A DNA stretch of 37,599 nucleotides, taken from the NCBI GenBank assembly GCA_947063675.1, contig CAMSTM010000013.1, forward strand, positions 1-37,599, read 5' to 3'. Below the pieces are notes generated by a model that had not been told where the DNA came from, made no database searches, and was given only the letters and a program-made list of their open reading frames with translations. Positions within the stretch are counted from its first letter, which is position 1; each line of letters opens with the position of its first letter. The position numbers and the translations under genes were made by a program. Origin of the DNA: an uncultured Lachnospiraceae bacterium (lineage in GTDB: Bacteria > Bacillota > Clostridia > Lachnospirales > Lachnospiraceae). Positions 424 through 33,857 of this stretch are shown one piece after another.

Positions 424-457
424 AAAAACGCATCCCGCATTCCGCTTCATCATCCCG

Positions 458-1576: not shown

Positions 1577-1604
1577 TTTTCTACCCCCTACCTGATAATC
1601 CAAA

Positions 1605-2363
1605 TCATCCCCGCAGTTTCCCAATCAGGTATTTCCCCTTGGCCATCCAAAATTCTTTCCACCGTCCGGGCAGGCTCTTTTCCACCTTCGGCAGTCCCAG
1701 ATATTCCTCAAAGGAAATCCATGCCACCCCTTCCCTTTGAAAATACCCCTCATACCGCTTCAAGTCCTCGTCGGAAACGGTATTGGTGTGCACTACCATG
1801 GTGGAATATCCGCTTTTCTTTTTAAGGGTACTCCCAAGCCGAAAGGAAATGGGATAAAAATCAAGCCCGGCATACCGATAGGGCTTTTCTCCAAAACCGT
1901 CCGTAAGCGCCCGGAATCCTGCCGCCCGAAGGGCTTTCCATGTATTTTTGTCATAGGAGTGGGCCGGCGCCATGAAAATATCCGTCTCAATCCCCTTTTC
2001 ACGCAAAATCTCTTTCCCCTCCGTCAGCATTTCCTGCTGCCGCGCAAAGGGCAGTCCGGCAAATTCGGAAAAATTATTCAGGGGAAAACAGCCGCCCTTT
2101 TTTGTGGAATAAATGTGCCGGAAGCCGTGCATGGCAATCACCCATCCATCCTCCTGCAGGGACTTTATATATTCCCAGAATCCCTCCGACAGCTTTTTTT
2201 CCTCCGCGGAAAACTCCTTTTTCACAAGGTTTTCGTCCCTGTTATCGGGAACCACCCCTATAAGCGGCTTCACCTGATAACGGTCCAGAAGCGCCTTAAA
2301 TTTCAGAAAGCGCTCCCAATCCATATCAGGTGTTATATCATCAAGTCTCACTGTGATTTTCAT
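1605..2363 (-). CDS. DUF2334-type polysaccharide deacetylase-like protein
   Basis: A protein of 252 residues with the layout of the DUF2334 branch of NodB/CE4-like deacetylases. RLDDIT near residue 5 supplies the paired aspartates. HGFRH near residue 79 has the metal-binding histidine spacing, and PAHSYD near residue 133 matches the third conserved motif. There is no signal peptide or membrane helix, so it would act in the cytoplasm, perhaps on a nucleotide- or lipid-linked sugar. Its start overlaps the stop of the upstream epimerase gene by four bases (ATGA), so translation is probably coupled. An N-deacetylase here would expose a free amine on a HexNAc of the repeat unit. That function is inferred from family and context only. 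Confidence 0.82.
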   Translation of the reverse strand: MKITVRLDDITPDMDWERFLKFKALLDRYQVKPLIGVVPDNRDENLVKKEFSAEEKKLSEGFWEYIKSLQEDGWVIAMHGFRHIYSTKKGGCFPLNNFSEFAGLPFARQQEMLTEGKEILREKGIETDIFMAPAHSYDKNTWKALRAAGFRALTDGFGEKPYRYAGLDFYPISFRLGSTLKKKSGYSTMVVHTNTVSDEDLKRYEGYFQREGVAWISFEEYLGLPKVEKSLPGRWKEFWMAKGKYLIGKLRG

Positions 2364-3337: not shown

Positions 3338-3411
3338 TTTTCTTTCTCCTGTCACTTATTTTCCGCCAAGTCCCTCAGCGCAGGCAAATCTCCGCAATTC
3401 CGAAATTTCCC

Positions 3412-4728
3412 CTACAGCCTCCAGTAAATAAAGTCCTCTGTCAGATATTCTTCCCTGTTAAACAGCCCTTTAATATCCATCAATACCTTTTTCTCATGCT
3501 TTGCGTTGTAGAAGCTGCTGATTTTTTCCTTATCCAGAGACAGGAACTGCTCATGGGACACGGCCACAATCACACCGTCCATGTCCTTTACCGCTTCCAT
3601 ATCGTCAAAGGTAATGCCGTACAGATGCTTTGCCTCCGCCGCGTCCGCCGCCGGGTCCACCACAACGGGATGAATCCCATACTCTCCCAGCTCTCTGTAA
3701 ATATCTATCACCTTGGTATTTCTGGTATCGGGACAGTTTTCCTTGAAAGTAAAACCAAGAATGGCAACCTTGGCCCGCTTTACCGGAATATCGGCCTTAA
3801 TCAGATTTTTTACCATATTTTCCGCAACATATTTCCCCATATCGTCGTTAATCTGACGGCCGGCTAAAATAATCTGGGAGTGGTATCCAAGTTCTTCCGC
3901 TTTATAGGTCAGGTAATAGGGGTCTACGCCGATACAGTGTCCTCCCACCAGACCGGGGAAAAATTTCAGGAAATTCCATTTGGTTCCCGCAGCCTCCAGC
4001 ACCGATTTGGTGTCGATACCCATTTTATTGAAAATAATGGAAAGCTCGTTCATAAAAGCTATGTTGATATCACGCTGGCTGTTTTCTATCACCTTGGCCG
4101 CCTCCGCCACCTTGATAGACTGGGCGCGGTACACTCCGGCCTCCACCACCAGCTCGTACACCTTCGCAACGGTGTCCAATGTTTCCGCATCCATACCCGA
4201 TACTATTTTTACAATGGTTTCCAGCCTGTGAACCTTATCGCCGGGATTGATGCGCTCCGGCGAGTACCCGATTTTAAAATCCACGCCGCAGGTAAGGCCG
4301 GATTCCTTTTCCAGAATCGGCACGCACACATCCTCCGTCACGCCGGGATAAACCGTGGATTCAAAAACCACCACGGAGCCCTTTGTAAGGTTTTGCCCCA
4401 GAATACGGCTTGCGCCTTCCACCGGGGTAAGGTCCGGGGTGTGGTCGCTGTTGACCGGCGTGGGCACCGCCACGATATGGAACTTCGCCTCCCTGAGCTT
4501 TGCCGCGTCCGCAGTAAACTCCACGCTGGTATTTTTGATGGCCTCATCGCCCACCTCTCTGGTGGGGTCTACGCCTTTCTGATACAGCGCAATCTTTTCT
4601 TTGTTTAAGTCAAATCCCACCACTTTGATTTTCCGCGCAAACGCCACCGCGATAGGCATTCCCACGTATCCAAGTCCCACAAGGGACAGCTTTTCTTCTC
4701 CGCTTAACAGTTTTTCATACAAATTCAT
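3412..4728 (-). CDS. tviB: UDP-N-acetylhexosamine 6-dehydrogenase, TviB/WbpO type
   Basis: An NAD-dependent UDP-HexNAc dehydrogenase of 438 residues, oxidising C6 of UDP-GlcNAc or UDP-GalNAc to the uronic acid in two steps. GLGYVG at 18-23 binds NAD. VPTPV near residue 88, FESTVYPGVTE near 122 and a conserved lysine near 212 follow. The catalytic cysteine is C265 in GGHCIGVDPYYL. The C-terminal UDP-binding domain ends normally, so the length is typical. The ATG at 4728 has GGAGG six bases upstream; an earlier in-frame start at 4752 would overlap the previous gene. With the following epimerase it should supply UDP-GalNAcA, giving the polymer a negative charge. Confidence 0.92.
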   Translation of the reverse strand: MNLYEKLLSGEEKLSLVGLGYVGMPIAVAFARKIKVVGFDLNKEKIALYQKGVDPTREVGDEAIKNTSVEFTADAAKLREAKFHIVAVPTPVNSDHTPDLTPVEGASRILGQNLTKGSVVVFESTVYPGVTEDVCVPILEKESGLTCGVDFKIGYSPERINPGDKVHRLETIVKIVSGMDAETLDTVAKVYELVVEAGVYRAQSIKVAEAAKVIENSQRDINIAFMNELSIIFNKMGIDTKSVLEAAGTKWNFLKFFPGLVGGHCIGVDPYYLTYKAEELGYHSQIILAGRQINDDMGKYVAENMVKNLIKADIPVKRAKVAILGFTFKENCPDTRNTKVIDIYRELGEYGIHPVVVDPAADAAEAKHLYGITFDDMEAVKDMDGVIVAVSHEQFLSLDKEKISSFYNAKHEKKVLMDIKGLFNREEYLTEDFIYWRL

Positions 4729-4741
4729 CCTGCTTCCTCCA

Positions 4742-5824
4742 CTATGAAACAATTTCTTTTATTTCTTTATAATAAGCTGCAACTACCTTATTCCTGTCAA
4801 ATTCCCTCTCCATCTTTTCTCTGGCTCTCCGACCCATCCGGGCTCTCTCCTCCCGCGACAGATTCAGGAATTTCCTAAGGGCTTCCGTAAGAGAGTCTCC
4901 GCTTTTCGCCTCACATCCAAAGCCCGTGACGCCCTCCTCAAAAATCTCCCGGCATCCGCTGATATTCGTGGCAATCACCGGCCTGCCCGTGGCGGAGGCT
5001 TCCATCAGCACATTGCTCATGCCCTCGTGCCAGGTGGGAAGCACCAGCGCCGAGGCCCTCTTTAAATGTTCATGTACCTGCGGGTCAAAGCCGAGCTGCC
5101 GGATAACGCCTTCTTTCTCACAGGCGTCAAGCCTGTCCTGATAGTCCTCGTCGCAGTAGCCCAGCAGTTCAAATTCCGCTTCCGGCCCGTGCAGTCTGGC
5201 GGCGGCTTCGAGAAGCTCTTCGATTCCCTTTTCCCGCATCATGCGCCCCACATAGAGGAAACGCACCGTCTCCCCTTCCGGGTATTCCTCAAAGGTGTGA
5301 CGGGACAGATTAACGCCCGAGCCCTTTACCAGTCTCGCGCTTTTCCCATTTATCCGATAGTTTTCAAATATTTTCCGGTTTTCCTCGTTTTGAAAAAACA
5401 CGCAGGCGGCCTTTTTCAGTCCTGCCCGGTACATGGCCACAATCATTTTAAGGAGCAGTCCCTTTTTCTGAAAGGTGCTCCCAAGCCCCGTAACCGTCAC
5501 AAGATAAGGGATTTTCATAAGACCGCAGCAAAATCCGCCGTAAATATTGGGCTTAATGGTGTAGGTCAGCACCAAATCCGGCTTTTCCTCCTTTAAGAGC
5601 CTCAGGTAGCTTCGAAGGAGCTTAAAATCCTCCGCCGGATTCACTCCCCGCCTGTTGATGGGCGTGTGGACCACCTTACAGCCCGCCGCTTTCAGCTCAT
5701 CGGTTTTTACCTCGTCCGGCAGACTCACCGTCACCTCATATTCTCCGAGAAGCTTTTCAATCAGCTCGCCCCGGAAATCATAAAGCCCTGCCGAGGAGTT
5801 GGCCAGTATCAAAATTTTTTTCAC
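4742..5824 (-). CDS. Glycosyltransferase family 4 (PglA/EpsD-like)
   Basis: A GT-B glycosyltransferase of 360 residues. The N-domain contains TYTIKPNIYGG and VTVTGLGSTFQ, both typical of the PglA/EpsD/CapM-like subgroup that adds the second sugar to an undecaprenyl-diphosphate sugar. The donor domain has FLYVGRMMREKGI and the E-x7-E motif in PTWHEGMSNVLMEASATG. The start codon is GTG, one base after the TGA stop of the ATP-grasp gene, so translation is probably coupled. Given its place close to the phosphoglycosyl transferase, it is a good candidate for adding the second residue, perhaps GalNAc or GalNAcA. The sugar is an inference; the family is clear. Confidence 0.88.
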   Translation of the reverse strand: MKKILILANSSAGLYDFRGELIEKLLGEYEVTVSLPDEVKTDELKAAGCKVVHTPINRRGVNPAEDFKLLRSYLRLLKEEKPDLVLTYTIKPNIYGGFCCGLMKIPYLVTVTGLGSTFQKKGLLLKMIVAMYRAGLKKAACVFFQNEENRKIFENYRINGKSARLVKGSGVNLSRHTFEEYPEGETVRFLYVGRMMREKGIEELLEAAARLHGPEAEFELLGYCDEDYQDRLDACEKEGVIRQLGFDPQVHEHLKRASALVLPTWHEGMSNVLMEASATGRPVIATNISGCREIFEEGVTGFGCEAKSGDSLTEALRKFLNLSREERARMGRRAREKMEREFDRNKVVAAYYKEIKEIVS

Positions 5825-5825
5825 G

Positions 5826-6809
5826 TCACTCTACGATTTCCTTTCCGTTAAAATCCCTGATGGCGACTTCGTTGTATTTCATCATACAGATATTTTCCGG
5901 ATACTCCCCGATTCTCACGGGGTTTTCCCTGCCGGAAAGATTGGCCATCACCTGCTTTGGCATGTTCACGCCGCAGGCATAGGCATGGGGATAACCACCC
6001 CCGAATCTGGGATTTACCTCCGAAATATAAAAGGTTCCGTTTATTTCAAATATATCAATATCTATCATACCACAAAAACCGCATTTTTCCACGAATTTCT
6101 GCAGCAGCTCAAAAAGCGCCGGAATTTTTACCGATACGGACTTATCCGTCTCCCCCGCGCGCATTTTAATTTTCTTTTTCACAAAAATAGAAGTGCATTT
6201 TCCGGAGAGCATGTCAATATACACGTCCGCCCCGTATTCCTGCCCGTCCATGAATTCCTGAATCATCAAATCGTCGTATAAGTCAAAAAGCACCTCGATT
6301 TCTTTATCCGAGGACACCTTGTTAATATTGATGCTGGCGCTTCCTCTCACCGGCTTTACGAAAACCGGATAGCTGATTTTTCCCGCGCGCAAATCCCCGT
6401 AAAAGGATTCCTTATCCACATAGCATTTCCCTGTTGGAACGGAAAACTCTGTCAGCATCTGATACATTTTATATTTATCAAAGCATGTTTCCACCAAATC
6501 GTAAGGCGAAACCACGGGCATCGTCCCCACCGCAAGAAACCGCTCCCTTTCTTTTGCAAGAAGGCTCAGCTCCGGGTCAATCAGGGAAAACACGCCGTCA
6601 ATTTTTTCCGATACGCAGATTTCCAGAATCCTGTCAATGTACCCCGGCGCGGTGATTCTGGGAACCAGATAAAAAACGTCCGCCTCATACACCGCGGGCG
6701 CCAGATTTGAGCAGTCGGTGGCAACCACCTTTCCGCCCTCCCCGATGTTTTCCTTAAAAAACTGAACCACCTTGTTCCTTGTTCCCGCACTTAAGATTAA
6801 TATATTCAT
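5826..6809 (-). CDS. ATP-grasp ligase (carbamoyl-phosphate-synthase-like)
   Basis: An ATP-grasp protein of 327 residues. The pre-ATP-grasp domain occupies roughly residues 1-105 and the ATP-grasp domain follows. KPVRGSASI at 152-160 is the glycine-rich ATP loop. IQEFMDGQEYGADVY near 183 is the adenine hinge, and EVNPRFGGG at 264-272 carries the metal-binding Glu and Asn. Such enzymes activate a carboxylate as an acyl-phosphate and join it to an amine. Similar proteins recur in Clostridia capsule loci without assigned function. Here it lies between the phosphoglycosyl transferase and the second-sugar GT. It could amidate a uronic acid (GalNAcA is predicted) or attach an amino acid to a 4-amino sugar. 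Fold certain; reaction inferred. Confidence 0.85.
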   Translation of the reverse strand: MNILILSAGTRNKVVQFFKENIGEGGKVVATDCSNLAPAVYEADVFYLVPRITAPGYIDRILEICVSEKIDGVFSLIDPELSLLAKERERFLAVGTMPVVSPYDLVETCFDKYKMYQMLTEFSVPTGKCYVDKESFYGDLRAGKISYPVFVKPVRGSASININKVSSDKEIEVLFDLYDDLMIQEFMDGQEYGADVYIDMLSGKCTSIFVKKKIKMRAGETDKSVSVKIPALFELLQKFVEKCGFCGMIDIDIFEINGTFYISEVNPRFGGGYPHAYACGVNMPKQVMANLSGRENPVRIGEYPENICMMKYNEVAIRDFNGKEIVE

Positions 6810-6882: not shown

Positions 6883-7506
6883 TTAACCTTCACGCTGTCC
6901 TTTCCTGTATATATCAAAATCCACCGTGGTCTGCTCTTCCCCGGACAAAACCCCCGAGCGTTTCAGCACCATTTTGACGGTCATAAAAATAATCCTCAAA
7001 TCCATCCCAAAGGTCAGATGGTTCACATACTCCAAATCGTAGGCGAACCGCTCCTCCCAACCGATGGCGTTGCGCCCGTTTACCTGAGCCAGCCCCGTAA
7101 GCCCCGGCCGCACGTCATGCCTGTGGCTTTCCTCCTCCGAGTACCAGGGCAGATATTTTACCAGAAGGGGCCTTGGCCCAATGAGGCTCATATCTCCCTT
7201 TAAGATGCTGAAAAGCTCCGGCAGCTCGTCCAGGCTGGTGGCCCGGAATATTCTGCCGAAACGGGTAAGACGAACCTCGTCCGGCAAAAGCTCCCCGTTT
7301 TCGTCCCGCTCGTCCGTCATGGAACGGAACTTGTGAAGCTTAAAAATTTTTCCGTCCTTTCCCGGCCTCTCCTGGGCAAACAGCGCCGGCTTTCCCAGCT
7401 TTATCCGCACCAGAATCCAGAGAATAAGGAGCAGGGGAGAAAGAATAATCAGCGCGCAAAGCGATATGATAATGTCGAGCAGTCTCTTTACAAACCTTTT
7501 GTACAT
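6883..7506 (-). CDS. Initiating phosphoglycosyl transferase (PglC/EpsL type)
   Basis: A monotopic sugar-1-phosphate transferase of 207 residues that starts the repeat unit on undecaprenyl phosphate. It has the single re-entrant hydrophobic helix at about residues 10-32, then the cytoplasmic catalytic domain. The Asp-Glu dyad is D93-E94 in SLDELPEL, with PRP near 111 and RPGLTGLAQVNGR near 133. The size is that of the small PglC/EpsL class, not the large WbaP/WcaJ class with an extra N-terminal membrane domain. The ATG at 7506 has GAGGGG upstream. The adjacent aminotransferase and dehydratase suggest the donor is UDP-bacillosamine-like or its 4-amino precursor (as for WcfS with AATGal). Family certain; donor inferred. 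Confidence 0.92.
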   Translation of the reverse strand: MYKRFVKRLLDIIISLCALIILSPLLLILWILVRIKLGKPALFAQERPGKDGKIFKLHKFRSMTDERDENGELLPDEVRLTRFGRIFRATSLDELPELFSILKGDMSLIGPRPLLVKYLPWYSEEESHRHDVRPGLTGLAQVNGRNAIGWEERFAYDLEYVNHLTFGMDLRIIFMTVKMVLKRSGVLSGEEQTTVDFDIYRKGQREG

Positions 7507-7552
7507 ATTTCCCCTCATTTTCCATGGCATATTTATGGTTCGGTATCTTTTA

Positions 7553-17768: not shown

Positions 17769-18308
17769 TCACTGTAATTTTTCATCCTCACGAAGCACCG
17801 CCATATAAATCACATCTTTATAGCGCCCTTCCAGAAAAACCTCGTCCCTCAAATACGCCTCTTTTACAAAACCCGCTTTCTCATAACTTCTGACAGCTCT
17901 GTCATTTTCCGCGAGCACCCGGAGCATCAGCTTATGAAGCCCCGCTTCCTCAAAGGCATATTTTATCATCATCAAAGCTGCCTGAGTGCCGTAGCCCTTT
18001 CCAAGGGCATCCTCTTCCCCGATAAAAATACCGTACTCGGCTTTATTGTGGGTTCTGTCGATGTCCCGCAAATAAACGCTGCCCACCGGCCTTGTGCCTG
18101 CTTTTTCGCAGATGATGAACTGAACGGCCTTGCCCGTATCTATCATAGTTTTTATCCAGTTTTCATGTCCCTTACGGGTAAATGGCTTCTGGTAGATGAA
18201 ATTCCGGAAGACCATTTCCTTATTCCGCCACCGGATAATGTCCTCCGTATCCTCCCCGGTCATTGGCCGCAGGTAAATGTCCTTACCCTCAATCTGCCCG
18301 CACTTCAT
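17769..18308 (-). CDS. GNAT N-acetyltransferase (RimJ/RimL/PseH-like)
   Basis: An acyl-CoA-dependent N-acetyltransferase of 179 residues. Strand IYLRPMTGEDTEDIIRWRN opens the fold. ALGKGYGTQA at 101-110 is the acetyl-CoA pyrophosphate loop, and LRVLAENDRAVRSYEKAGF near 129 is the usual C-terminal motif. The ATG at 18308 lies 12 bases after GGGGAGG and overlaps the upstream gene by 20 bases; a TTG at 18329 is an alternative. Position beside WecE and the GtrB-like GT suggests it N-acetylates dTDP-4-amino-4,6-dideoxygalactose, as WecD does. PseH, which acetylates a 4-amino sugar nucleotide in pseudaminic acid synthesis, is also a GNAT, so this enzyme could instead serve the Pse cassette. Confidence 0.85.
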   Translation of the reverse strand: MKCGQIEGKDIYLRPMTGEDTEDIIRWRNKEMVFRNFIYQKPFTRKGHENWIKTMIDTGKAVQFIICEKAGTRPVGSVYLRDIDRTHNKAEYGIFIGEEDALGKGYGTQAALMMIKYAFEEAGLHKLMLRVLAENDRAVRSYEKAGFVKEAYLRDEVFLEGRYKDVIYMAVLREDEKLQ

Positions 18309-20166
18309 AAATTTCAAAAACCTCCCCAATCACGGCAATTCTTTCCGCCCTCACAGGCGTTCCGTGGCCCTCGTAGTATGCAAAAAGCCAGTCCATGTCC
18401 TCGCCGGATTTTCTGACAAAATAAACGTTATCCTTTTCCCGCAGCGCCTGCTCCATGTTATCGATTCCGAAAAGGGCAAACTTTTTTCTCTGCAGAGGGC
18501 TTTTACAGGCCCAGCCCCCCATGATATCGTAATTGTCAAGGGAATTGTCCACCCCCTCAAACATCTTTTCCGAATAGGATACCGAAGAATAAACGTCTAT
18601 CAGATAAAAATTATCCGCGTTTTCTTCCCCGGAAAGATGACTGTAAAGCTCCCGGTAAGGGGCGTTTACCTGCTCCCGGTATGTCTGCTCCGCGGAAACC
18701 TCCCGCACACTGTCAGGAAGAACGAAAACCGCAAAAACGGTAAAAACGGCAATGGAAGCCGCGCTCATATATTTTTTTACCGCCCTGTGACGGATTTCCC
18801 TCCACTCCTCAAAAAGCATGGCGGCCAGAATGCACAGCTCCATCAGGTACAGTGAATGGGTAATCCGCTCCGGGGCCCGCTCCCGCATTAAAATGAACAT
18901 CCAAAGCATTGTCCTAACCAGAAAAAGAAGCGCCAGCTTCCAACTGATTTTCAGGATGCGAATGCCTGCCGCTGTCTTTGCTAAGGACCGGCTTTCCGAA
19001 GCCCCCGGCAGTTTTTGCTCTCTCTGCCCGTTTCCGGAATCTTCCGGGTTTCCCATCCCCTGTCCATTTCTCATCTTCCCCGGCAGCGCCGCCGCAAACA
19101 CCAGGAGATATCCGAAAATCACCGCATAATTCCAGGGATAATCGCTCCCCGTCACGCCTCTTCCCCGGGTGAAGCGGTAAACATAATCCTTAAGCTTGCC
19201 GGGCAGCTTCTGCAAAAACGGCTCCGCCGCGCTTCTGTTTTCTCCCGCATACTCCGCAATTTCGCCAACCATAACCTCGTCGATTTCCTCGTCCATGCCG
19301 AAATTATAGTTGTCAAAGAGAATCTTTTCGCTTTCCGTCAGCCCGATACTCTCATAAAACGCCTGATGCTCCTCATAAGAGGGAGGCTCCTGAAAGTCAT
19401 AAAGCTCCGTCCTGTTATTAAAAAACTCCGTAAAGGTGCGCCATTCCTCTGAGCCATAAGCCAGCATATGCGTAATCTGTCCAAATACGATGGCTGCCAG
19501 AATCATACCGATTACGGAAAAATATTTGATTGCATGATTTTTGGTGAAAATTTTTTCCTCGCCGCCCCATTTCGCGACGCCCGCCGCGCAAATCATGGGA
19601 AGCACCAGAAGCAGCATTTCCGAACGGACCAGATAGGCGGTTCCCACCATCAGCGCCACGGGAATATTTTTCCTGATAAACTCCCTGTGGTTAAGGCTGA
19701 TATCCGTTGTGTAAAACAAAAAGGCGGCGCTGGCGGCCAGCAGCGTTGTTGTCACCGTATACTGGGCAAACACCAGATGCTTTAAAAACAGCGCGCCGAA
19801 CAAAAAGAGCTCCCCAAGAGCCACAGCCAGCTTTCCCCAAAGCGAGGCGCAGAATAAGAGGCTTCTTTTTACTATCAGAAAAAAGCTCCCGAAGTGGCAA
19901 AGGCATAAAAACAGCCCATACCAGGGAAGCGTCCCTATCATCCGGTAAAACAGACTGATAAAGGCGCTCACAAGCCAGAGCATCTGTATATTATGCCCCT
20001 CCGGCGTTCCGGTGTAAACCCCGGCCAGAATGTCTTTCATCAGCACGTCGTCGTTCAAATCATAATAATAATCAAAACGAAGCGCCGCAAAGACTCCCAG
20101 CATCGCCACTGCCCCGACTGCAATTATCCAGTTTTCAATTTTCCCAAGCCTGTTTTCTCTGCCCAT
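18289..20166 (-). CDS. Large GT-C-like membrane protein
   Basis: A protein of 625 residues with about ten to eleven membrane helices and a soluble C-terminal domain. The first outer loop has YYDLNDDVLMKD with acidic residues D39 and D40 immediately after the first helix, the typical GT-C catalytic position, followed by YTGTPEGHN. Between the two membrane halves is an external, acidic, aromatic-rich segment (about 245-330). A Gly/Gln/Ser-rich cytoplasmic linker precedes the later helices. I know similar proteins from Lachnospiraceae glycan loci but no characterised member. It overlaps the GNAT gene, so they are probably co-translated. Best guess: it transfers the polyprenyl-phosphate-linked sugar to the polymer. 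Confidence 0.75.
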   Translation of the reverse strand: MGRENRLGKIENWIIAVGAVAMLGVFAALRFDYYYDLNDDVLMKDILAGVYTGTPEGHNIQMLWLVSAFISLFYRMIGTLPWYGLFLCLCHFGSFFLIVKRSLLFCASLWGKLAVALGELFLFGALFLKHLVFAQYTVTTTLLAASAAFLFYTTDISLNHREFIRKNIPVALMVGTAYLVRSEMLLLVLPMICAAGVAKWGGEEKIFTKNHAIKYFSVIGMILAAIVFGQITHMLAYGSEEWRTFTEFFNNRTELYDFQEPPSYEEHQAFYESIGLTESEKILFDNYNFGMDEEIDEVMVGEIAEYAGENRSAAEPFLQKLPGKLKDYVYRFTRGRGVTGSDYPWNYAVIFGYLLVFAAALPGKMRNGQGMGNPEDSGNGQREQKLPGASESRSLAKTAAGIRILKISWKLALLFLVRTMLWMFILMRERAPERITHSLYLMELCILAAMLFEEWREIRHRAVKKYMSAASIAVFTVFAVFVLPDSVREVSAEQTYREQVNAPYRELYSHLSGEENADNFYLIDVYSSVSYSEKMFEGVDNSLDNYDIMGGWACKSPLQRKKFALFGIDNMEQALREKDNVYFVRKSGEDMDWLFAYYEGHGTPVRAERIAVIGEVFEIYEVRAD

Positions 20167-20245: not shown

Positions 20246-21376
20246 TTATACTCCGTAAAACTCCCGCACCTTACCCGCAATGTATGTGGTCTGTTCTTCC
20301 GTCAACTGATAAAACATGGGAAGGCGCAGAAGCCGCTCGCTTTCCTTTGTGGTGTATCTGTCTTCGCCGGAAAACCGTCCGAACTTAAGTCCTGCCGGCG
20401 CGGAATGCAGGGGCACATAATGAAAGACCGTGAGAATATCGTTTGCCCGCATAAAGTCAATGAGCCTGCCTCTTTCCTCCAAATCCCGGGTTTTGATGTA
20501 AAACATATGGCCGTTGTGCACACAGTTCTCCGGAACCGCTGGCAGTTCGATTTTCCCCGCCTCTTTCAGGGGCGAAAGCAGTTCATAATACTGATTCCAC
20601 CTTGCGATGCGGGAATCGTTAATTTCATCCGCCATCTCAAACTGGGCGTACAGATAGGCCGCGTTCATGTCGCTTGGAAGATAGGATGAACCGAAATTCA
20701 TCCAGCGGTACTTGTCCACCTGCCCCCGGAAGTATTTGCTTCTGTCTGTTCCCTTTTCCCGGAGGATTTCCGCATCTTCAATATAAGCGGGGTCTTTGAT
20801 GAGAAGCGCGCCGCCCTCTCCCATGCTGAAATTCTTAGTCTCGTGAAAGCTGAAACACCCGAAATCCCCGAAAGTCCCAAGGGGCTTTCCCTTATAAGTG
20901 CACATGATTGCCTGAGCGGCGTCCTCCACCACTTTCAGATTATATCTTCCGGCAATGTCCATAATAGTGTCCATTTCGCAGGCCACCCCGGCATAATGCA
21001 CCACAAAAATCGCTTTTGTCTTTTCCGTTATGGCCGCCTCGATTAAATTCTCGTCAATGTTCATGGTATCCGGCCTTACGTCCACAAATACCGCCTTCGC
21101 CCCCCGCAGCACAAAAGCGTCCGCCGTGGAAACAAAGGTATAGGAGGGAAGAATCACCTCGTCCCCTTCCTTCAAATCGCATAAAAGCGCCGCCATCTCA
21201 AGCGCATGGGTACAGGAGGTGGTGAGCAGGCACTTCGCCGTGCCCGTAATCTTTTCCAGATATTCGCTGCACTTTTTTGTAAATTCCCCGTCTCCGCAGA
21301 TATGCATGTTTTCCACGGCCTTCTTCATATTCTCGATTTCCCGTCCCGTGTAGGGCGGCACATTAAAACGAATCAT
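20246..21376 (-). CDS. wecE: dTDP-4-amino-4,6-dideoxygalactose transaminase (WecE/RffA)
   Basis: A PLP aminotransferase of 376 residues that matches E. coli WecE through its entire length as I recall it. It has FNVPPYTGREIENM at the start, CGDGEFTKKC, DEVILPSYTFVSTADAF, VHYAGVACEMDTIM, HETKNFSMGEGG with the PLP lysine K181, and EDRYTTKESERLLRLP near the end. It should convert dTDP-4-keto-6-deoxyglucose to dTDP-Fuc4N. RmlA and RmlB, which make the substrate, are not in this window. The ATG has GGAGGGAAC directly upstream. It lies between two GT-C-like genes, which ties the aminosugar to their activity. High confidence in the enzyme. Confidence 0.95.
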   Translation of the reverse strand: MIRFNVPPYTGREIENMKKAVENMHICGDGEFTKKCSEYLEKITGTAKCLLTTSCTHALEMAALLCDLKEGDEVILPSYTFVSTADAFVLRGAKAVFVDVRPDTMNIDENLIEAAITEKTKAIFVVHYAGVACEMDTIMDIAGRYNLKVVEDAAQAIMCTYKGKPLGTFGDFGCFSFHETKNFSMGEGGALLIKDPAYIEDAEILREKGTDRSKYFRGQVDKYRWMNFGSSYLPSDMNAAYLYAQFEMADEINDSRIARWNQYYELLSPLKEAGKIELPAVPENCVHNGHMFYIKTRDLEERGRLIDFMRANDILTVFHYVPLHSAPAGLKFGRFSGEDRYTTKESERLLRLPMFYQLTEEQTTYIAGKVREFYGV

Positions 21377-26311: not shown

Positions 26312-28351
26312 TTACTCTGTCAGCACCACATCCGCCACCGGCAGCTCCTGCCAGGTGGCGTAGAACGTCATATCCTCGTAAACCGGCTTGTACCGGTCAT
26401 AGGGTATCCCCTCCTTTGTGGCCCAGCCCATAAACAGAGAGCTGTATCTGGACGGTATCAGTTCCGCATCCGGCACCTCTCCGTCCCTGACGCACAAAAG
26501 CTGCCACGCTTCCCCGTCCACCACAAATGTCACGGTATGGCTGATTCCGCCGCCCAGCCAGACTTCGTTCAAAAAATCTCTTCTTTTTTCGATGAAATAT
26601 TTCAAGTATCTGACATCATTGTCATATTCTTCGTAATACTGATACCGGTTCTCAAGCTCTTCCCATCTGATACTGTCCATTTCGGCGGATTTCCGGCTTT
26701 CCAGAACCATCTTGTCAATCCCGCCCGCTAACAGGGAATTGAGATAGGGAAGCGCCTTCTCCTCGTACATTTTTACCATTTGTCCGTAAAAATCTTCTTT
26801 TTCATATAATTCCGCAAACACATCCGTTCCATACACATGGTCCCTTAGTCTTGTGATTCCCGCCGGATTGCTGGCAATCCTGTCCAGATTGCAGTTGCCG
26901 AAAGCCACGTCATAATCCCACACCGGCCCCGCAAAAATCTTACGGCTTACGGAATCCTCAGGCTTGTAAAAAAAGCTGCTTGTGACACCACCGTCATAAT
27001 TCTTGGAAATTTCCTCCACCAGATATTTCCGGATAAAGGAATCCACGTCAATATATTCCGAGTAATGCTTTCCCGTGACGGGATGAATCCCGTCCTCCTT
27101 TGAGACGGCGTCCTGAAATTCCTGCATCAAATCCGCAATATAATTTACCTGGTCTTCCGAGGCATACAGAGGGCTTTGCAGTGTATAACAGTCCCCCTGG
27201 TCTGTCACGAAACCGCTGATTTCCGTCTCAAAGCGCGACTCAATCTCTCTTTCCAACAGATATCCCCCTGACAGGTCCCCGTTATCAATCCCGGTTTCCA
27301 CCCATTTTCTGGTGCCCTCTTCATTCCCGCCGGGCGTAAGCTTTTCAATCTCCTGCGGGCTGTAAACGGCCTCCAACAGCTTTTCCATATCCCGGATAGC
27401 GACGCTTCCCTCGTCCACCCGTATCTTTTCCGTCAGAAAATAGTTCCCGTAATAGCAGTTGTTGATATACAAATCAATCATTTTTCCGTCCGGTACATAT
27501 TTCATCTCAAGCTCCGAAGCCAGTTCCAGCGCGACCTGATTGCGGAGCCTTGTTTCATCATATCCGTTTGCCAGGAGGTTAAAGGATGCGGCTTCACCGA
27601 ACCCGAAAAAATCCACATCTTCACAGAGCTTTATCTGATAGGGCTTCTTTGACAGCCCCCAGGTGGAATTTCCCCTTCCCCTGATGCTCTCCGCCTTACC
27701 GGCATACAGTTTTTCACCGGTTTCGCCATAAAGCGCCGCGCTTCCCTCCTCCTGATTTTCCTTGTCTTCATCAATGAAGTCCGTACTCCCGGAAACGGTG
27801 GTAAGGGACAGCACAGGCAAATCGGAGGAATACATGAAAGCGGCTCCGCATGTAAGCCCCTCCCCGTCGTCTGCCGGCACTGTAAGCTCATAGAGCCTTT
27901 CTTCGGAAATTCCCCGAAGGACGTCCCCCTCTTTTACTTCCGTATCCCCGATAAAAATGCTTCCTCCCGGCGCCGTTTTAAGGACCAGCCCTCTGCCTTT
28001 TGCAAAGCCGGGCAGAAAAAAATAACAGATTCCGGTATTGCTCCGCCACATGGATACCCAAAACGCCTCCGAATCCTCTTCATAGCCCTCCAGGGAAAAA
28101 CATACTTCCGGCAGCGCTTCCTGTTCTATCGCCACTTCCGGCGCAGGAGTTTCTTTTTTTTCTTCCAGCCCGGCTTTTCGCTCTTCTTCTATCTCTTCCC
28201 TGTCCCCAAGGCTCTGCTCCTCCACAAGAAAGACGTCCTTTTTTCTGTGTTCGCTTATCTTTTCCTTTACCACAGGATATCCCGCCATAAAAAGAAGCAG
28301 CGCAGCGCCGGCCAAAGCCAGCGCCGTTGTAATTTTTCTGTTTTCCTCCAT
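26312..28351 (-). CDS. CotH-family kinase-like protein, membrane-anchored
   Basis: A protein of about 679 residues with an N-terminal signal anchor (about 8-26), a charged linker and a CotH kinase domain. Motifs are IRGRGNSTWGLSKKPYQIK, the helix with LLANGYDETRLRNQVALEL, YINNCYYGNYFLTEKI and the metal-binding GPVWDYDVAFGN. The C-terminal 65 residues (TVTFVVDG, FMGWATKEG, MTFYATW) look like one InlB-type beta repeat. CotH phosphorylates spore-coat proteins in Bacillus, while many surface CotH proteins in Clostridia have no known substrate. Start at the ATG at 28351; an ATG at 28363 sits almost on top of the AAAGGAG site. In a glycan locus it may modify a surface protein or a glycan. Confidence 0.85.
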   Translation of the reverse strand: MEENRKITTALALAGAALLLFMAGYPVVKEKISEHRKKDVFLVEEQSLGDREEIEEERKAGLEEKKETPAPEVAIEQEALPEVCFSLEGYEEDSEAFWVSMWRSNTGICYFFLPGFAKGRGLVLKTAPGGSIFIGDTEVKEGDVLRGISEERLYELTVPADDGEGLTCGAAFMYSSDLPVLSLTTVSGSTDFIDEDKENQEEGSAALYGETGEKLYAGKAESIRGRGNSTWGLSKKPYQIKLCEDVDFFGFGEAASFNLLANGYDETRLRNQVALELASELEMKYVPDGKMIDLYINNCYYGNYFLTEKIRVDEGSVAIRDMEKLLEAVYSPQEIEKLTPGGNEEGTRKWVETGIDNGDLSGGYLLEREIESRFETEISGFVTDQGDCYTLQSPLYASEDQVNYIADLMQEFQDAVSKEDGIHPVTGKHYSEYIDVDSFIRKYLVEEISKNYDGGVTSSFFYKPEDSVSRKIFAGPVWDYDVAFGNCNLDRIASNPAGITRLRDHVYGTDVFAELYEKEDFYGQMVKMYEEKALPYLNSLLAGGIDKMVLESRKSAEMDSIRWEELENRYQYYEEYDNDVRYLKYFIEKRRDFLNEVWLGGGISHTVTFVVDGEAWQLLCVRDGEVPDAELIPSRYSSLFMGWATKEGIPYDRYKPVYEDMTFYATWQELPVADVVLTE

Positions 28352-28404
28352 TGTTATAACCATGCTCCTTTCCAAAGCCTGCGGCCTTCCGCCGCTGGTG
28401 AAAG

Positions 28405-29499
28405 TCAGTAAATCTGCTCGTTCTGTCTGTGGATTTCAGGCGCTTCATATTTGTCCATGAAGTCCTCCCCCAGAAAAACTTTTTCTTTTGCGAAGGAAAT
28501 CGCCGCCGGAACGGTAAATACAGTGACAACTCTGTCAAAAACCAGATTTTTTACGAAATTTAAAATTTCCATGGGAAACTTTCCGTCCAGCACAATATGT
28601 TCAGGAAACAGGCTCTTATAATCCAGTGCGTCTCTTGGGTGCGGCTTAATCAGAATCTGGGCTCTCCTGCCCTCAACCACCCCGTATTCCGCGATAATGT
28701 CCCTGAAAATCCGCTCTCTTGTTTCCAGGTCGCACAGAGGCTCCGACAGCACCAGCACCTTATGCTCGTGCCCTTCCCCAAAAGCCAGCTTCTCCTCCAG
28801 CTCCTTCAGATTATCTATGAAAACAGACACAAGTGTCGTTTTTTCTTCTTCTCCTAACCCCTGTGTCAGTTCTTTTCTCGGCTTTTCGATATATTTCGGG
28901 CAGGGGTATTCCAGAACCGAAATGTCATTGACCTCCATATCCAGGCAATACTTCGCGTATCCGTTCTGGATGAAAATCAGGTTTACGGCGGCTATCCGGG
29001 CTTTCAGGCCGAAATGCCCTCTGTTGTCGTACCGGGCGGTATCATAATAGCGAATGCAGTCAAGCCCGTCCTCTAAGGCATGATAATAAATCTTATGGGT
29101 GTTCAGATAGTAGCCGATGGGGTCCGAATCGCAGAACACGTAAATATCCTCATACTCCCGCAAATCCACCGGCACAAAAGGCGCCTGCAGCTTTCCCATC
29201 ATTCTGGTATATTTTATCCGTGCAAGCATATTCAGCACAATATTTCCCCTGTCTTTATGGAAACGGGCAAGCCCGGGAAAATAGCTCTCCGGCTTTTCGT
29301 CGTAGGGAATAACTTCCGCAAAAAGCCCGGAAGAAAGCGCGCGCTCCTGCAGCGAGCCGAAATCGTTTGACAGGCGGCTCAGCATCAGCGAAGCCTGTCC
29401 CCTCACGGCCCCGCCGCCGCTCTTTGGCAGATTTAATTCTTTCAGACATGCAATATAGGCATGATAATAGGTGTGGCAGATATAAATTCTTTTTTTCAA
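28405..29499 (-). CDS. GT52-like (sialyltransferase-type) glycosyltransferase
   Basis: A protein of 364 residues without membrane helices and of GT-B-like layout. It opens with IYICHTYYHAYI, then has a DSD segment at 124-126, YYHALEDG at 138-145 and IKPHPRD at 284-290. The ED-G and K-HP motifs are those of the GT52/GT80-like CMP-sialic-acid-using transferases. It is transcribed divergently from pseF with a shared intergenic region, so a CMP-pseudaminic acid donor is a strong contextual guess. The start codon is TTG with GAGGAG nine bases upstream. A CotH kinase gene follows after 53 bases. Family assignment is by motif memory; the sugar is inferred. Confidence 0.72.
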   Translation of the reverse strand: MKKRIYICHTYYHAYIACLKELNLPKSGGGAVRGQASLMLSRLSNDFGSLQERALSSGLFAEVIPYDEKPESYFPGLARFHKDRGNIVLNMLARIKYTRMMGKLQAPFVPVDLREYEDIYVFCDSDPIGYYLNTHKIYYHALEDGLDCIRYYDTARYDNRGHFGLKARIAAVNLIFIQNGYAKYCLDMEVNDISVLEYPCPKYIEKPRKELTQGLGEEEKTTLVSVFIDNLKELEEKLAFGEGHEHKVLVLSEPLCDLETRERIFRDIIAEYGVVEGRRAQILIKPHPRDALDYKSLFPEHIVLDGKFPMEILNFVKNLVFDRVVTVFTVPAAISFAKEKVFLGEDFMDKYEAPEIHRQNEQIY

Positions 29500-29653: not shown

Positions 29654-30358
29654 ATGCAGACAAGCGGCAAAAACCTTGCAATGATTACCGCCAGAGGCGG
29701 CAGTAAACGGATTCCCCGAAAAAATATCAAAGAATTTTGCGGTAAGCCCATTATCGCCTACTCCATTGAAGCGGCTAAAGAAGCCGGCGTTTTTGACGAA
29801 ATCATGGTTTCCACCGACGATGAGGAAATCGCGCAAACCGCCCGTGCATTCGGCGCGCGCGTCCCCTTTTTCCGTTCAGAGGAAAATTCCGGCGACTACG
29901 CTTCCACCGATGACGTGATTATGGAAGTCCTTACGGCCTACCGCAATGCGGGACAGGAATTTGACGCCTTCTGCTGTCTTTATCCCACCGCGCCCTTTTT
30001 AAGCGGAGGACGGCTTCGGGAAGCCATGGAACTGCTGAGAGAGGCGGACAGCGTTATGCCCGTGGCGCCTTTCTCCTATCCTCCCCAGAGGGGACTTATT
30101 TTAAACGAAAAGGGGTATGTGGAACGGCAGTTTCCCGAGTACGCGGCCGCGCGCAGCCAGGACCTTCCCCGAATTTACCACGACTGCGGCCAGTTTTACG
30201 CCTGCCGCACCGGCCCCTTTATGCAGGCTAAGACCACCGACGTTCCCTGCCTTGTTCCCTTAATCCTGACGGATTTGGAGGTGCAGGACATCGACACGCC
30301 CGAGGACTGGGCGCTGGCGGAAATGAAATACAGGATTTTACATGAAAAAACTACCTGA
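29654..30358 (+). CDS. pseF: Pseudaminic acid cytidylyltransferase
   Basis: An enzyme of 234 residues that activates pseudaminic acid with CTP to the CMP sugar. ARGGSKRIPRKN at 13-24 is the nucleotide-binding loop. STDDEEIA near 53, the Pse-type segment RSQDLPRIYHDCGQFY at 167-182, and VQDIDTPEDW at 210-219 place it with PseF, not NeuA. The ATG at 29654 has AAAGGAA six bases ahead; an in-frame GTG exists at 29621. It is first in a plus-strand cassette with a PLP enzyme, pseI and pseG. Confidence is high for the PseF-like family. The exact nonulosonic acid is not proven because pseB and pseC are missing here. Confidence 0.92.
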   Translation: MQTSGKNLAMITARGGSKRIPRKNIKEFCGKPIIAYSIEAAKEAGVFDEIMVSTDDEEIAQTARAFGARVPFFRSEENSGDYASTDDVIMEVLTAYRNAGQEFDAFCCLYPTAPFLSGGRLREAMELLREADSVMPVAPFSYPPQRGLILNEKGYVERQFPEYAAARSQDLPRIYHDCGQFYACRTGPFMQAKTTDVPCLVPLILTDLEVQDIDTPEDWALAEMKYRILHEKTT

Positions 30359-30366
30359 TATCCCAA

Positions 30367-30388
30367 AGGCGCGGACACACCGGCGCCT
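30367..30388. other. Intercistronic inverted repeat between pseF and the PLP gene
   Basis: AGGCGC at 30367-30372 and GCGCCT at 30383-30388 form a six-base GC stem with a ten-base loop in the 51-base gap. There is no T run, so it is not an obvious terminator. Confidence 0.35.
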
Positions 30389-30409
30389 GAATCTTTGGAG
30401 GTTACTGCC

Positions 30410-31624
30410 ATGGAACAGCTTCAAACGCCCTTTTTCCGGATAAAGGAAAAGGACTTATTATATGATATTTCGATTTTAAAAGAAGCCCTCTTGAAAAACT
30501 GGGGCAATTACATCGCGGGGTATTCCGTAAAAACCAACTCTCTGCCGTGGCTTCTTTCCTATTTAAAAGCACAGGGCTTTTATGCGGAGGTTGTCTCGAA
30601 ACCGGAATATGACCTGGCGGTAAGGCTTGGCTTTTCGTCGGAGCATATCATTTACAACGGCCCCATTAAGGACAAAAAAATATTCGAGGAGGTACTCCTT
30701 GCCGGCGGCTATGTAAATCTGGATTCCGGCTACGAGCCTGACTGGCTGGCGGAATTAAGCGGCCGCTTCCCTGAGCGCAGTTTTCCGGTGGGGCTTCGCG
30801 TCAACTGCGACATTGCCGCCCTCTGCCCGGAGGAAACTCTCGTGGAAGAGGAGGGCGGGAGATTCGGCTACTGCTATGAAAACGGCGTGCTGGGAGCCGT
30901 AATCAAAAGGCTGGAAAAGCTTCCCAATGTGAAAATATCCGGCCTTCATCTTCACTCCTCCACTCAGTCAAGAACCGTACACGTATACGGCGCGCTGGCG
31001 AAAATGGCGGTCCGCATCGCCCGGGAATACGCCCTTTCTCTCGATTACGTGGACATGGGCGGGGGGTATTTCGGCGGAAGAGACGACAAGCCGGATTACC
31101 GGGATTATTTCCGGGAAATCTGCAAGGAGCTTTCGGCGCACTTTTCCCCGGATAAGACGAAAATTATTGCGGAGCCCGGCGTTTCCCTGATTTCAAGGGC
31201 AACCACCTTTGAAACCACCGTTCTTGACGTGAAGGATATCCGGGGGAGGAAATTTATTGTGACGGACGGGAGCCGCACGAACCTGAATCCGTTGGTGACC
31301 CGGCACGTTTATCCCCACCATATACAGTATATTTCCGACACCTCTGTCAGAAACAGGGAGCACGACCAGTGGGTGTGCGGAGCCACCTGTATGGAATACG
31401 ACAGGCTTTTTGAAATCGTTGACGGCGCCGCTCTCATTCCCGGGGATAAAATTATCTACGATACGGCCGGCGGATATACCATGTGCCTGAACCCTCTGTT
31501 TATCAATTATTTTCCGGCGGTTTATATCGAGCATACAGACGGCACGCTTTTTACCGCAAGAGACGCCTGGTCCAACGACGAGTTTATGATGAAAAATTAT
31601 ACGGAAAGCGAGGCTTGCTTATGA
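30410..31624 (+). CDS. Fold-type III PLP-dependent decarboxylase-like enzyme
   Basis: A protein of 404 residues of the Orn/DAP/Arg decarboxylase family. The alanine-racemase-like barrel has the PLP lysine K41 in YSVKTNS. HLHSS (180-184) replaces the usual HxGS. DMGGGY (215-220) and EPG (255-257) bind the cofactor phosphate. The C-terminal beta domain gives GATCMEYD (C327, D331), where ODC has C-D and DAP decarboxylase C-E: the acidic residue after the catalytic Cys is Met here. GDKIIYDTAGGY near 345 closes the site. The ATG at 30410 has GGAGG upstream. Its stop overlaps pseI by ATGA. No known step of Pse synthesis needs a decarboxylase; it may make an amine or D-amino acid substituent. Confidence 0.85.
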   Translation: MEQLQTPFFRIKEKDLLYDISILKEALLKNWGNYIAGYSVKTNSLPWLLSYLKAQGFYAEVVSKPEYDLAVRLGFSSEHIIYNGPIKDKKIFEEVLLAGGYVNLDSGYEPDWLAELSGRFPERSFPVGLRVNCDIAALCPEETLVEEEGGRFGYCYENGVLGAVIKRLEKLPNVKISGLHLHSSTQSRTVHVYGALAKMAVRIAREYALSLDYVDMGGGYFGGRDDKPDYRDYFREICKELSAHFSPDKTKIIAEPGVSLISRATTFETTVLDVKDIRGRKFIVTDGSRTNLNPLVTRHVYPHHIQYISDTSVRNREHDQWVCGATCMEYDRLFEIVDGAALIPGDKIIYDTAGGYTMCLNPLFINYFPAVYIEHTDGTLFTARDAWSNDEFMMKNYTESEACL

Positions 31625-32682
31625 AGAAAGAAATCAGAATCGGAAAACGGACAATCAGCGAAACTTCCCCCGTTTTCGTGGTCGCGGAAATATCCGGCAA
31701 TCACAATCAGGATTACGGACGCGCCATAGAGCTTATCCATGCGGCAGGCGAAGCCGGCGCGGACGCTGTAAAGCTCCAGACCTACACCGCCGACACCATC
31801 ACCATTGACTGCGACGACCCGGCCTTTACGATTCACGAGGGAACCATCTGGGACGGGCAGACCCTTCATCAGCTTTACTCCCAAGCTTATACTCCCTGGG
31901 AGTGGCAGGCCCGGCTGATGGAGGAGGCAGGCAGGCTGGGAATGGAATGCTTTTCCTCCCCCTTCGATTTAACATCGGTTGACTTTCTGGAGCGTCTGAA
32001 TGTGCCGGCCTACAAGATTGCCTCCTATGAAATCAACGACATTCCCCTGATTCGAAAGGTTGCCAGGCTTCACAAGCCTGTCATTCTCTCTACGGGGGTT
32101 GCCTATCCCGAGGACATTGAACGGGCTTTCGACGCCTGCCGGCAGGAAGGGAACGAGGACGTGATTTTACTTAAATGCGTATCCGCCTATCCCACCCCCT
32201 ACGAAGCGGTAAATTTGAGAGTGATTCCCACTCTGGCAAAAACCTACGACTGCCTTGCGGGCATTTCCGACCACACCATGGGAACCATCGTCTCGGCAGG
32301 CTCCGTCGCTATGGGCGTTAAGATGGTGGAAAAGCACCTCACTCTCCGGCGCTCCGACGGCGGGCCGGACAGCGCCTTTTCCATGGAACCGAAGGAATTT
32401 GCGCAGATGGTAAAGGATATCCGCATTATGGAAAAAGCCCTGGGAAGCGACGTCTACGGGCTTACCGAAACCCAGAAACTGGAGCACGGCGGTTCCCGTT
32501 CCCTTTTCGTTGTGGAGGATATCGACGCCGGACAGCTCCTCACCCCCGAAAATATCCGCTCCATCCGTCCCGGCAACGGTTTATGCGGTTTACACACCAT
32601 GCATTATGAGGAAGTCCTTGGAAAAACAGCAAAAACATTCCTGAAGAAAGGAACGCCGCTTCAATGGGAACTCATCAGTTGA
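31621..32682 (+). CDS. pseI: Pseudaminic acid synthase with SAF domain
   Basis: An enzyme of 353 residues of the NeuB/SpsE family that condenses a 2,4-diacetamido-trideoxyhexose with phosphoenolpyruvate. The TIM barrel has AEISGNHNQ near 22, KLQTYTADT near 51, GISDHT near 214 and EKHLTLRRSDGGPDSAFS near 237. The GGPDSAFS element is the PseI version, as NeuB has a different PGPDH-type sequence. The antifreeze-like SAF domain covers about 290-353. The ATG at 31621 overlaps the previous stop by four bases, so translation is coupled. The long upstream in-frame extension lies within the previous gene and is rejected. Confidence 0.93.
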   Translation: MKKEIRIGKRTISETSPVFVVAEISGNHNQDYGRAIELIHAAGEAGADAVKLQTYTADTITIDCDDPAFTIHEGTIWDGQTLHQLYSQAYTPWEWQARLMEEAGRLGMECFSSPFDLTSVDFLERLNVPAYKIASYEINDIPLIRKVARLHKPVILSTGVAYPEDIERAFDACRQEGNEDVILLKCVSAYPTPYEAVNLRVIPTLAKTYDCLAGISDHTMGTIVSAGSVAMGVKMVEKHLTLRRSDGGPDSAFSMEPKEFAQMVKDIRIMEKALGSDVYGLTETQKLEHGGSRSLFVVEDIDAGQLLTPENIRSIRPGNGLCGLHTMHYEEVLGKTAKTFLKKGTPLQWELIS

Positions 32683-33857
32683 TTTATTTAAGGACAGACG
32701 GAAACAAAAATATTGCGTCCGGCCATTTAACCCGCTGCCTGTCCCTTGCCCTTGCGTGCAGGCAGCTTGGTATGGACGTTCATTTTCTGGTTTCCGATGA
32801 AGAAAGCCTTTCCCTGCTGCAAAGCATTTGGGAGAGCTGGGCAAAGACGGAGGAAAAGATAAGGGAGCCCTTTACTTTGCAAACGGCTTTTGCTATTACA
32901 AAGCTTAAGACCGCTTCCTATGACTGTTTAGAGCAGGAACTACCGGAGCTGACCGCCCTTCTCTCCGCTCCGGTTCCCGGCACTTTTCCTTCCGCAAACG
33001 CTTCTCCCGAAAACGATATATGTGTCACAAGCAAAAGACCGGTATTACTCATTGATTCCTACTATGTAACCGAAGCCTATTTATCCGCCTTAAAGCCTTT
33101 TGCCGCAATCGCTTATCTGGACGATTTGCGGCTTTTTGACTATCCCGTGGATTTGCTTGTCAACTATGACGTAATCCCCAAGTCAGAGCTGCCCGCCTAT
33201 CGGGCCGCCTGCCAGAACGCCGGACGCCTTCTTCTGGGCGCCGCCTACACGCCCCTGCGCAGCCAGTTTCAGGGAAAGCAGATTACAATAAAAAAGCATG
33301 TCGGAAATATATTAATTACCACTGGAGGAAGCGACCCTTACCATTTTTGTCTTTCCTTTATCCATAAACTGAAAATTTTAAATTCGGAGAATCCCTGTAT
33401 TTTTTCGGACACTGTGTTCCATATTATAATAGGAAAACTTAACGATGACAAAGACGCTCTTTATATGCGCGCCAGAGAACTGCCCTTTTTAAAGCTCCAT
33501 GAAAATGTGTCCGATATGGCCGCGCTCATGCTTGGCTGCGATTTTGCCGTATCCGCCGCCGGAACCACCTTATATGAACTCTGCGCTCTGGGCGTTCCCT
33601 CCGTCAGCTTCACCATGGCTGACAACCAGACCGCTTCCGCCAAAGCCTTCGCAGACGCCGGCGCAATTCCCTTTGCCGGAGATATCCGTGAAAATCCGGA
33701 CGAAGTTCTTGCAATGATTTTGAGGCTTATAAAAGATTTCCATGACGGCAATTCTTATCATCAGAGGAAGTCCGCGCAGGCAGCCATGCGCAGACTGGTT
33801 GACGGCAGCGGCGCGCTGCGTATCGCGCAGGCACTCAAAGCTCTTTCCGAGGCCTGA
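32664..33857 (+). CDS. pseG: UDP-2,4-diacetamido-trideoxy-altropyranose hydrolase
   Basis: A GT-B fold UDP-sugar hydrolase of 397 residues that removes UDP before the PseI reaction. RTDGNKNIASGHLTRC with the catalytic-type H21 opens the protein. The MurG-like C-terminal UDP site is VSAAGTTLYELCALGVPSVS. It is longer than well-known PseG proteins (about 275-340 residues), with an extra segment at about 60-130. The gene overlaps pseI by 19 bases. The ATG at 32664 has a distant AAAGGAA; a TTG at 32679, reading MIYLRT, is an alternative start. It completes the late pathway with PseI and PseF and supports pseudaminic acid over sialic or legionaminic acid, which use NeuC-type enzymes. Confidence 0.88.
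   Translation: MGTHQLIYLRTDGNKNIASGHLTRCLSLALACRQLGMDVHFLVSDEESLSLLQSIWESWAKTEEKIREPFTLQTAFAITKLKTASYDCLEQELPELTALLSAPVPGTFPSANASPENDICVTSKRPVLLIDSYYVTEAYLSALKPFAAIAYLDDLRLFDYPVDLLVNYDVIPKSELPAYRAACQNAGRLLLGAAYTPLRSQFQGKQITIKKHVGNILITTGGSDPYHFCLSFIHKLKILNSENPCIFSDTVFHIIIGKLNDDKDALYMRARELPFLKLHENVSDMAALMLGCDFAVSAAGTTLYELCALGVPSVSFTMADNQTASAKAFADAGAIPFAGDIRENPDEVLAMILRLIKDFHDGNSYHQRKSAQAAMRRLVDGSGALRIAQALKALSEA

Follow-up and report, generated by a model that had tools for sequence, protein, structure and literature searches.

A putative decarboxylase and ATP-grasp ligase pair linked to pseudaminic acid genes in Lachnospiraceae

Nonulosonic acids are capping sugars of bacterial surface glycans, in whose recognition their N-acyl groups play a part. 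Pseudaminic acid (Pse) in its cytidine monophosphate (CMP)-activated form, CMP-Pse5Ac7Ac, is the product of the enzymes PseB, PseC, PseH, PseG, PseI and PseF. In the present work we analysed a Pse cassette of an uncultured Lachnospiraceae bacterium in which a gene for a pyridoxal phosphate (PLP)-dependent enzyme, hereafter the PLP gene, lies between pseF and pseI. The cassette is located on contig CAMSTM010000013.1 of assembly GCA_947063675.1, and the whole stretch analysed (positions 1 to 37,599 of the forward strand) is referred to as the window. As in the known route, PseC, PseG, PseI and PseF are present and score above their NCBIfam cut-offs in this genome. A putative PseB is represented by two contig-end pieces. 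In contrast to the known route, a ligase and a decarboxylase are added, no PseH-type gene is found near the cassette, and the only PseH-like gene over the cut-off lies near WecE. We favour, tentatively and with some doubt, the reading that the PLP decarboxylase and an ATP-grasp ligase form a pair that supplies the N-acyl group of Pse in place of PseH.

The decarboxylase FigC/FslC shares with the PLP enzyme the fold, the catalytic residues and a Met after the catalytic Cys, and it is also paired with an amide-forming synthetase (PMC7857480). However, it belongs to a siderophore locus with a nonribosomal peptide synthetase-independent siderophore (NIS) synthetase as partner, whereas the enzyme studied here resides in a sugar locus and has an ATP-grasp partner. 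BtrK, which acts with BtrJ in butirosin synthesis (PDB 2j66, 7ru7), differs in that its glutamate is held on a carrier protein and its product is an antibiotic rather than a surface glycan. The closest precedent for the pathway, by analogy and in part, appears to be sfmABCDE of Shewanella oneidensis, where the authors inferred a Pse with one acetyl group and a further moiety of 236-264 Da (PMC3765264). There, too, an ATP-grasp_4 protein, SfmE, belongs to a Pse-like pathway without a clear PseH; unlike the present system, that pathway serves a flagellin glycan, clear PseF, PseG and PseI are also missing, and the accessible text mentions no decarboxylase (PMC3765264). No PLP decarboxylase in a nonulosonate cluster was found in the literature searched by title and abstract start, mostly without subscription papers. 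The enzyme classes of the locus are known ones, placed in a pathway where this search found no description of them.

By NCBIfam profile cut-offs for the three pse genes and Pfam gathering scores for the PLP domains, the cassette consists, all on the plus strand, of pseF (29654..30358, CMP-pseudaminic acid synthetase, 234 amino acids; TIGR03584, 273.9 bits against a cut-off of 205.7), the PLP gene (30410..31624, 404 amino acids), pseI (31621..32682, pseudaminic acid synthase, 353 amino acids; TIGR03586, 459.9 bits against 340.25) and pseG (32664..33857, uridine diphosphate (UDP)-sugar hydrolase, 397 amino acids; TIGR03590, 162.9 bits against 153.55). This gene set and order agree with an earlier note on the same DNA, which had also described all four genes as packed by overlaps. 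The overlaps of the PLP gene with pseI (ATGA, 31621-31624) and of pseI with pseG (19 bases, 32664-32682) are as it stated, but 51 bases separate the stop of pseF (30358) from the ATG of the PLP gene (30410), so that the claim of tight packing is right only in part.

The PLP protein matches both domains of fold-type III decarboxylases (PF02784, 90.9 bits, cut-off 23.4; PF00278, 27.1 bits, cut-off 23), and its best match by both profile and structure is FigC (NF041039, the FslC/FigC N-citrylornithine decarboxylase profile; PDB 7kh2), although the profile score of 130.8 bits is below the cut-off of 500. By these matches it is an alanine-racemase-fold decarboxylase of a subfamily without a name, nearest to FigC/FslC. 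In an alignment of 126 subfamily rows, K41, H182, G217-219, E255 and C327 are kept in 120 to 124 rows; according to PMC7857480, the corresponding positions are the catalytic Lys, the His stacking on PLP, the glycine loop, the Glu and the catalytic Cys. The decarboxylase-like nature that the earlier note had ascribed to the product is thus borne out by the two domains and the kept catalytic residues. In addition, a Met directly follows the catalytic Cys in 117 of the 126 rows. FigC likewise has a Met here, in place of the Asp responsible for binding the side-chain amine of ornithine, arginine or diaminopimelate, and FigC, SbnH, AcsE, MccE and BtrK, all of this fold, use conjugated amino acids as substrates (PMC7857480). 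Two basic residues, R289 and R298 (R or K), are conserved in 119 rows each.

A scan of GTDB contigs provided 80 loci, the best among 508 relatives, from Parablautia, Eisenbergiella, Lacrimispora, Butyrivibrio and unnamed Lachnospiraceae. In 62 of them pseI is the next same-strand open reading frame (ORF) of at least 90 amino acids after the PLP gene. In another comparison of the same loci, PseF and the PLP domain were found joined in a single ORF of 631-677 amino acids in 20 of the 80, and 16 of these 20 are titled Butyrivibrio; in the one fusion checked, that of Butyrivibrio hungatei DSM 14810 (L200), Pfam finds CTP_transf_3 and both decarboxylase domains. The pseF-PLP-pseI order, which the earlier note had suggested looking for, thus recurs in other genomes. 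On a tree of PLP proteins, those of the Pse loci group together in a single clade of 22 leaves (support 1.0; leaf L221 is without a pse gene in the fetched DNA). A phylum-wide search with the subfamily profile at 1e-60 matched five of 398 genomes, the genome of the window counted. Three of these matches come from other families, of which L238 and L239 lie near a distant ATP-grasp relative (23-24% identity) and L240 near none.

The proposed partner is an ATP-grasp ligase encoded outside the window (C90:3699-4841), with a GT2 glycosyltransferase gene and PseC a few genes off. Its predicted structure (mean predicted local distance difference test, pLDDT, 91.8) matches 4dim first, followed by the L-amino acid ligases 3vot, 4wd3 and 3wo1, and PF13535 is over its gathering score in the ligases of two relatives (L078, L200). 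We surveyed 194 genomes (own, genus, family and order) and counted a PLP ortholog at an identity of at least 61%. The ortholog occurs in 27 genomes, 26 of them among the 37 of the genus, and the ligase, at an identity of at least 55%, occurs in exactly the same 27, a match that overstates the independent evidence because the genomes are kin and the genes are mostly linked; the remaining ligase matches (G039, G077, G103) are only 28-45% identical. In 21 of 26 same-genus PLP loci an ATP-grasp gene, convergent with pseG, lies next to it or one to two genes further along; behind it usually come GT2, PseC and a gene for a protein like the Spo0A C-terminal domain (Pfam for L078). Among the 80 GTDB loci, the ATP-grasp gene is within the fetched DNA in 66, and 13 of the other 14 have the ligase elsewhere in the genome, the exception being G618, a 1.8 Mb assembly. 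The ligase gene stands directly 5' of the PseF-PLP gene in 19 of the 20 loci with the fusion, L216 being the exception. On sequence evidence, the PLP-ligase pairing is therefore well supported. The tie between the PLP gene and the Pse genes that the earlier note had proposed is upheld: a passenger gene is ruled out by the conserved order before pseI, the PseF fusion and the co-occurrence with the ligase, which lies close to PseC in relatives.

The pairing extends beyond the Pse loci. Of the 12 tree leaves outside the Pse clade (own-genome root aside), eight have a PylC-like ligase as neighbour or two genes away; for L238 there is a different ATP-grasp relative, and for L069, L070 and L240 none was seen. 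The PLP enzyme thus kept an ATP-grasp partner while the ligase family changed.

With regard to the other Pse enzymes, PseC is over the cut-off in ten of ten further PLP-positive genomes. PseB of the own genome is split between the ends of contigs C77 and C249 (profile positions 2-183 and 173-323), and neither piece alone reaches 407.75 bits. No PseH-type gene is found within 6 kb of pseI in the own genome. Its sole gene over the PseH cut-off (98.4 against 93.1 bits) encodes a GNAT protein at 17769-18329 of the window on the minus strand; a second PseH-like match is weak (27.8 bits). The GNAT gene adjoins a lipid-sugar transferase-like gene (192.5 bits, below its own cut-off) and lies one gene from WecE (20246-21376, minus strand; 627.5 bits against 375). 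Because of this proximity, the GNAT protein more likely acetylates the WecE product than serves as PseH. The PseH profile may mislabel a WecE-side GNAT, the score being just over the cut-off. We also surveyed 54 pseI places from the G-handle genomes within a 6 kb radius. An ATP-grasp gene is near in 32 of them, a PseH-type GNAT in six, both in none and neither in 16 (11 without and five with the PLP gene). Hence a near GNAT accompanies 0 of 32 places with a near ATP-grasp gene versus six of 22 without one (Fisher p 0.003, uncorrected for kinship). In the five PLP-positive places without a near ligase, which include the window, the ligase is on another contig. G018 has the PLP gene and the ligase and shows no PseH-like match at 1e-12.

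Starting from the class of the enzyme, its conserved active site, its pairing with the ligase, its fusion to PseF and the exclusion near pseI, we infer a substrate, an acylated nitrogen, an order of steps and a product. The PLP enzyme would decarboxylate a conjugated (or omega-carboxylate) amino acid and be paired with an ATP-grasp carboxylate-amine ligase. PseC would make the sugar amine, to which the ligase would join the carboxylate of an amino acid as an amide, as with Asp or Glu bound through the side chain. After PseG and PseI had completed the nonulosonate, the decarboxylase, working alongside PseF or fused to it, would take the alpha-carboxylate off the attached amino acid. Such late decarboxylation, near CMP activation, is suggested by the linkage of the PLP gene to PseF; decarboxylation before ligation would give the same product. 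The result would be a CMP-nonulosonate carrying an N-acyl group with a terminal free primary amine, of the beta-alanyl or 4-aminobutanoyl type. Decoration of the nonulosonate, already envisaged in the earlier note, is supported as the likeliest role of the PLP gene by its linkage to the Pse genes.

Several observations weigh against the proposed replacement of PseH. The L-amino acid ligases of closest fold act through the alpha-carboxylate, which would leave nothing to decarboxylate; therefore, the scheme needs side-chain ligation or prior decarboxylation. The Arg that binds the PLP phosphate (EPG-R motif, residue 258), a further difference from FigC, is Val or Ile in 111 of the 126 rows and Arg in two, and the specificity-helix region (296-298) of the predicted structure has a pLDDT below 50, so that pocket residues are not assignable. 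Eleven of the 54 pseI places have no PLP, ATP-grasp or GNAT gene within 6 kb, so that a substitute cannot be deduced just from the lack of a PseH nearby. No genome-wide anticorrelation between PseH-like genes and the PLP gene was seen: a match at 1e-12 is present in 32 of the 37 genomes of the genus, among those with the PLP gene and those without it, and all 16 of the further PLP-positive genomes show one at 1e-5, two of them over the cut-off. The WecE-side GNAT could therefore double as PseH, and the exclusion between PseH-type GNAT and ATP-grasp genes holds only for genes near pseI. In addition, L063 has the PLP gene and a PylC-like ligase beside LicD, IspD-like and glycosyltransferase genes, with no DegT aminotransferase in the ten neighbours scanned.

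The main rival, which we regard as somewhat unlikely, is carboxylate amidation. Here the amine would come from the decarboxylase, either made as such or left by trimming of a conjugated amino acid, and the ligase would join it to the carboxylate of the sugar, at C1 in the nonulosonate or at C6 in a uronic acid, giving an amide with an amine tail much as FigA/FigC do with citrate and ornithine. Amidation is the main rival because several non-Pse PLP loci carry uronic-acid genes, namely UDP-glucose dehydrogenase and epimerase genes in L064 (by Pfam) and in L059, L062, L065 and L066 (by BLAST label); acidic sugars are common to both locus kinds. The uronic loci, however, also encode a dehydratase and a DegT aminotransferase, which makes a sugar amine available there too, and L063 has neither UDP-glucose dehydrogenase nor DegT in its ten neighbours. 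The closest characterised enzyme, FigC, decarboxylates an ornithine that is joined to a carboxylic acid by an amide (PMC7857480), and the conserved R289 and R298 could bind an acid, but amidation leaves the exclusion between PseH-type GNAT and ATP-grasp genes near pseI unexplained.

The presence of the pair in unlike glycan loci, including L063 with its LicD genes, the change of ligase family while the PLP enzyme stays, and the PseH-like gene of the own genome are all consistent with an independent small-molecule unit. The pair would then make a free amide or a dipeptide-derived amine, some transferase would put it on the assembled glycan, and the nonulosonate would be ordinary Pse5Ac7Ac. We consider this improbable, as the PseF fusion and the place before pseI tie the enzyme to the nonulosonate itself. 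It is more doubtful still that a housekeeping-type gene has been relocated here, one for a racemase or for a decarboxylase of diaminopimelate, lysine or ornithine that makes only a free amine or amino acid. The LysA profile TIGR01048 does match (120.9 bits), and the diaminopimelate decarboxylase 6n2f is first by Foldseek E-value, such enzymes lying less than one Z unit from FigC. Against this, the LysA score is far below its cut-off of 297.9, a Met occupies the position at which enzymes acting on free diamino acids use Asp to bind the side-chain amine, two further homologs (24-25% identity) are encoded elsewhere in the genome, the C-terminal sheet domain and catalytic Cys of decarboxylases are present, and the gene is linked to PseF, PseI and the ligase. 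Identity with LysA or ornithine decarboxylase was rejected on the scores below cut-off and the Met for Asp.

Compared with the core enzymes, the PLP gene behaves in sequence comparisons as an exchangeable module. The earlier note had called it an integral part of the pathway, and this wording is ruled out: PseI is over the cut-off in 34 of the 37 genus genomes, and eight of these 34 (G005, G008, G015, G024, G026, G031, G032, G033) have no PLP ortholog. Absence from closely related cassettes, which the earlier note took as evidence against its proposal, is thus found in part. Three of the eight (G033, G024 and G032, corresponding to L058, L060 and L061) carry a PLP relative of 47-49% identity and a PylC-like ATP-grasp ligase beside pseF-pseI-pseG. 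It is this replacement that suggests exchange. G008 and G015 have a different ATP-grasp gene after pseI (26-27% identity to the window type) and no PLP gene.

We raise the possibility, less probable than the N-acylation alone, of a Pse pathway without PseH in gut and rumen Lachnospiraceae. A zwitterionic nonulosonate with a free-amine N-acyl group would be made there by an ATP-grasp ligase together with a new subfamily of decarboxylases of conjugated amino acids, fused in Butyrivibrio to the CMP-sugar synthetase, and the two enzymes would serve various types of surface-glycan loci as an exchangeable decoration cartridge. If true, a decarboxylase and a ligase within the Pse pathway would be chemistry undescribed for nonulosonates in the literature searched, in common gut and rumen bacteria, and the nonulosonate might be positively charged. 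Likewise, a new branch of the FigC/BtrK/SbnH decarboxylase group would enter glycan biosynthesis. The PseF-decarboxylase fusion, or an ATP-grasp and a PLP gene beside pseI, could serve as a genomic marker for finding such pathways.

Among the neighbouring genes, a GT52-family glycosyltransferase gene (28405..29499, minus strand; PF07922, 50.2 bits against 26.1) is divergent from pseF and is found close to the cassette in many relatives too; its product is a candidate transferase for the nonulosonate. It is adjoined by a CotH-kinase protein gene (26312-28375, minus strand), relatives of which hold the same position in some same-genus loci. At 5826-6809 on the minus strand the window has a PylC-like ATP-grasp gene in a uronic-acid cluster (with 6883-7530, 3412-4752 and 2360-3355). 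A similar cluster in L059, L064 and L066 has a PLP relative (46-47% identity) between the sugar transferase and the ligase; the cluster of the window has none. In L057 (G073; 315-3290) the PLP gene is followed not by pseI but by aspartate-dehydrogenase-like and 2-hydroxyacid-dehydrogenase-like genes, with relatives of the ligase, GT2, PseC and PseB close by; as a clue to the amino acid substrate these dehydrogenase-like genes are too thin, and the neighbours in the other loci gave LysR, MFS, MatE, HAD, bactofilin and more. In G008 (L111, 4936-7260, plus strand) a PseG-like ORF of 774 amino acids has a long N-terminal part that, by eye only, resembles a fold-type I aminotransferase. Short proteins of 122-149 amino acids with a Spo0A C-terminal domain or similar to Spo0A are encoded directly before PseC in L078 (3275-3691), L058 (5056-5424) and L041 (9427-9876), and are possible regulators of the locus.

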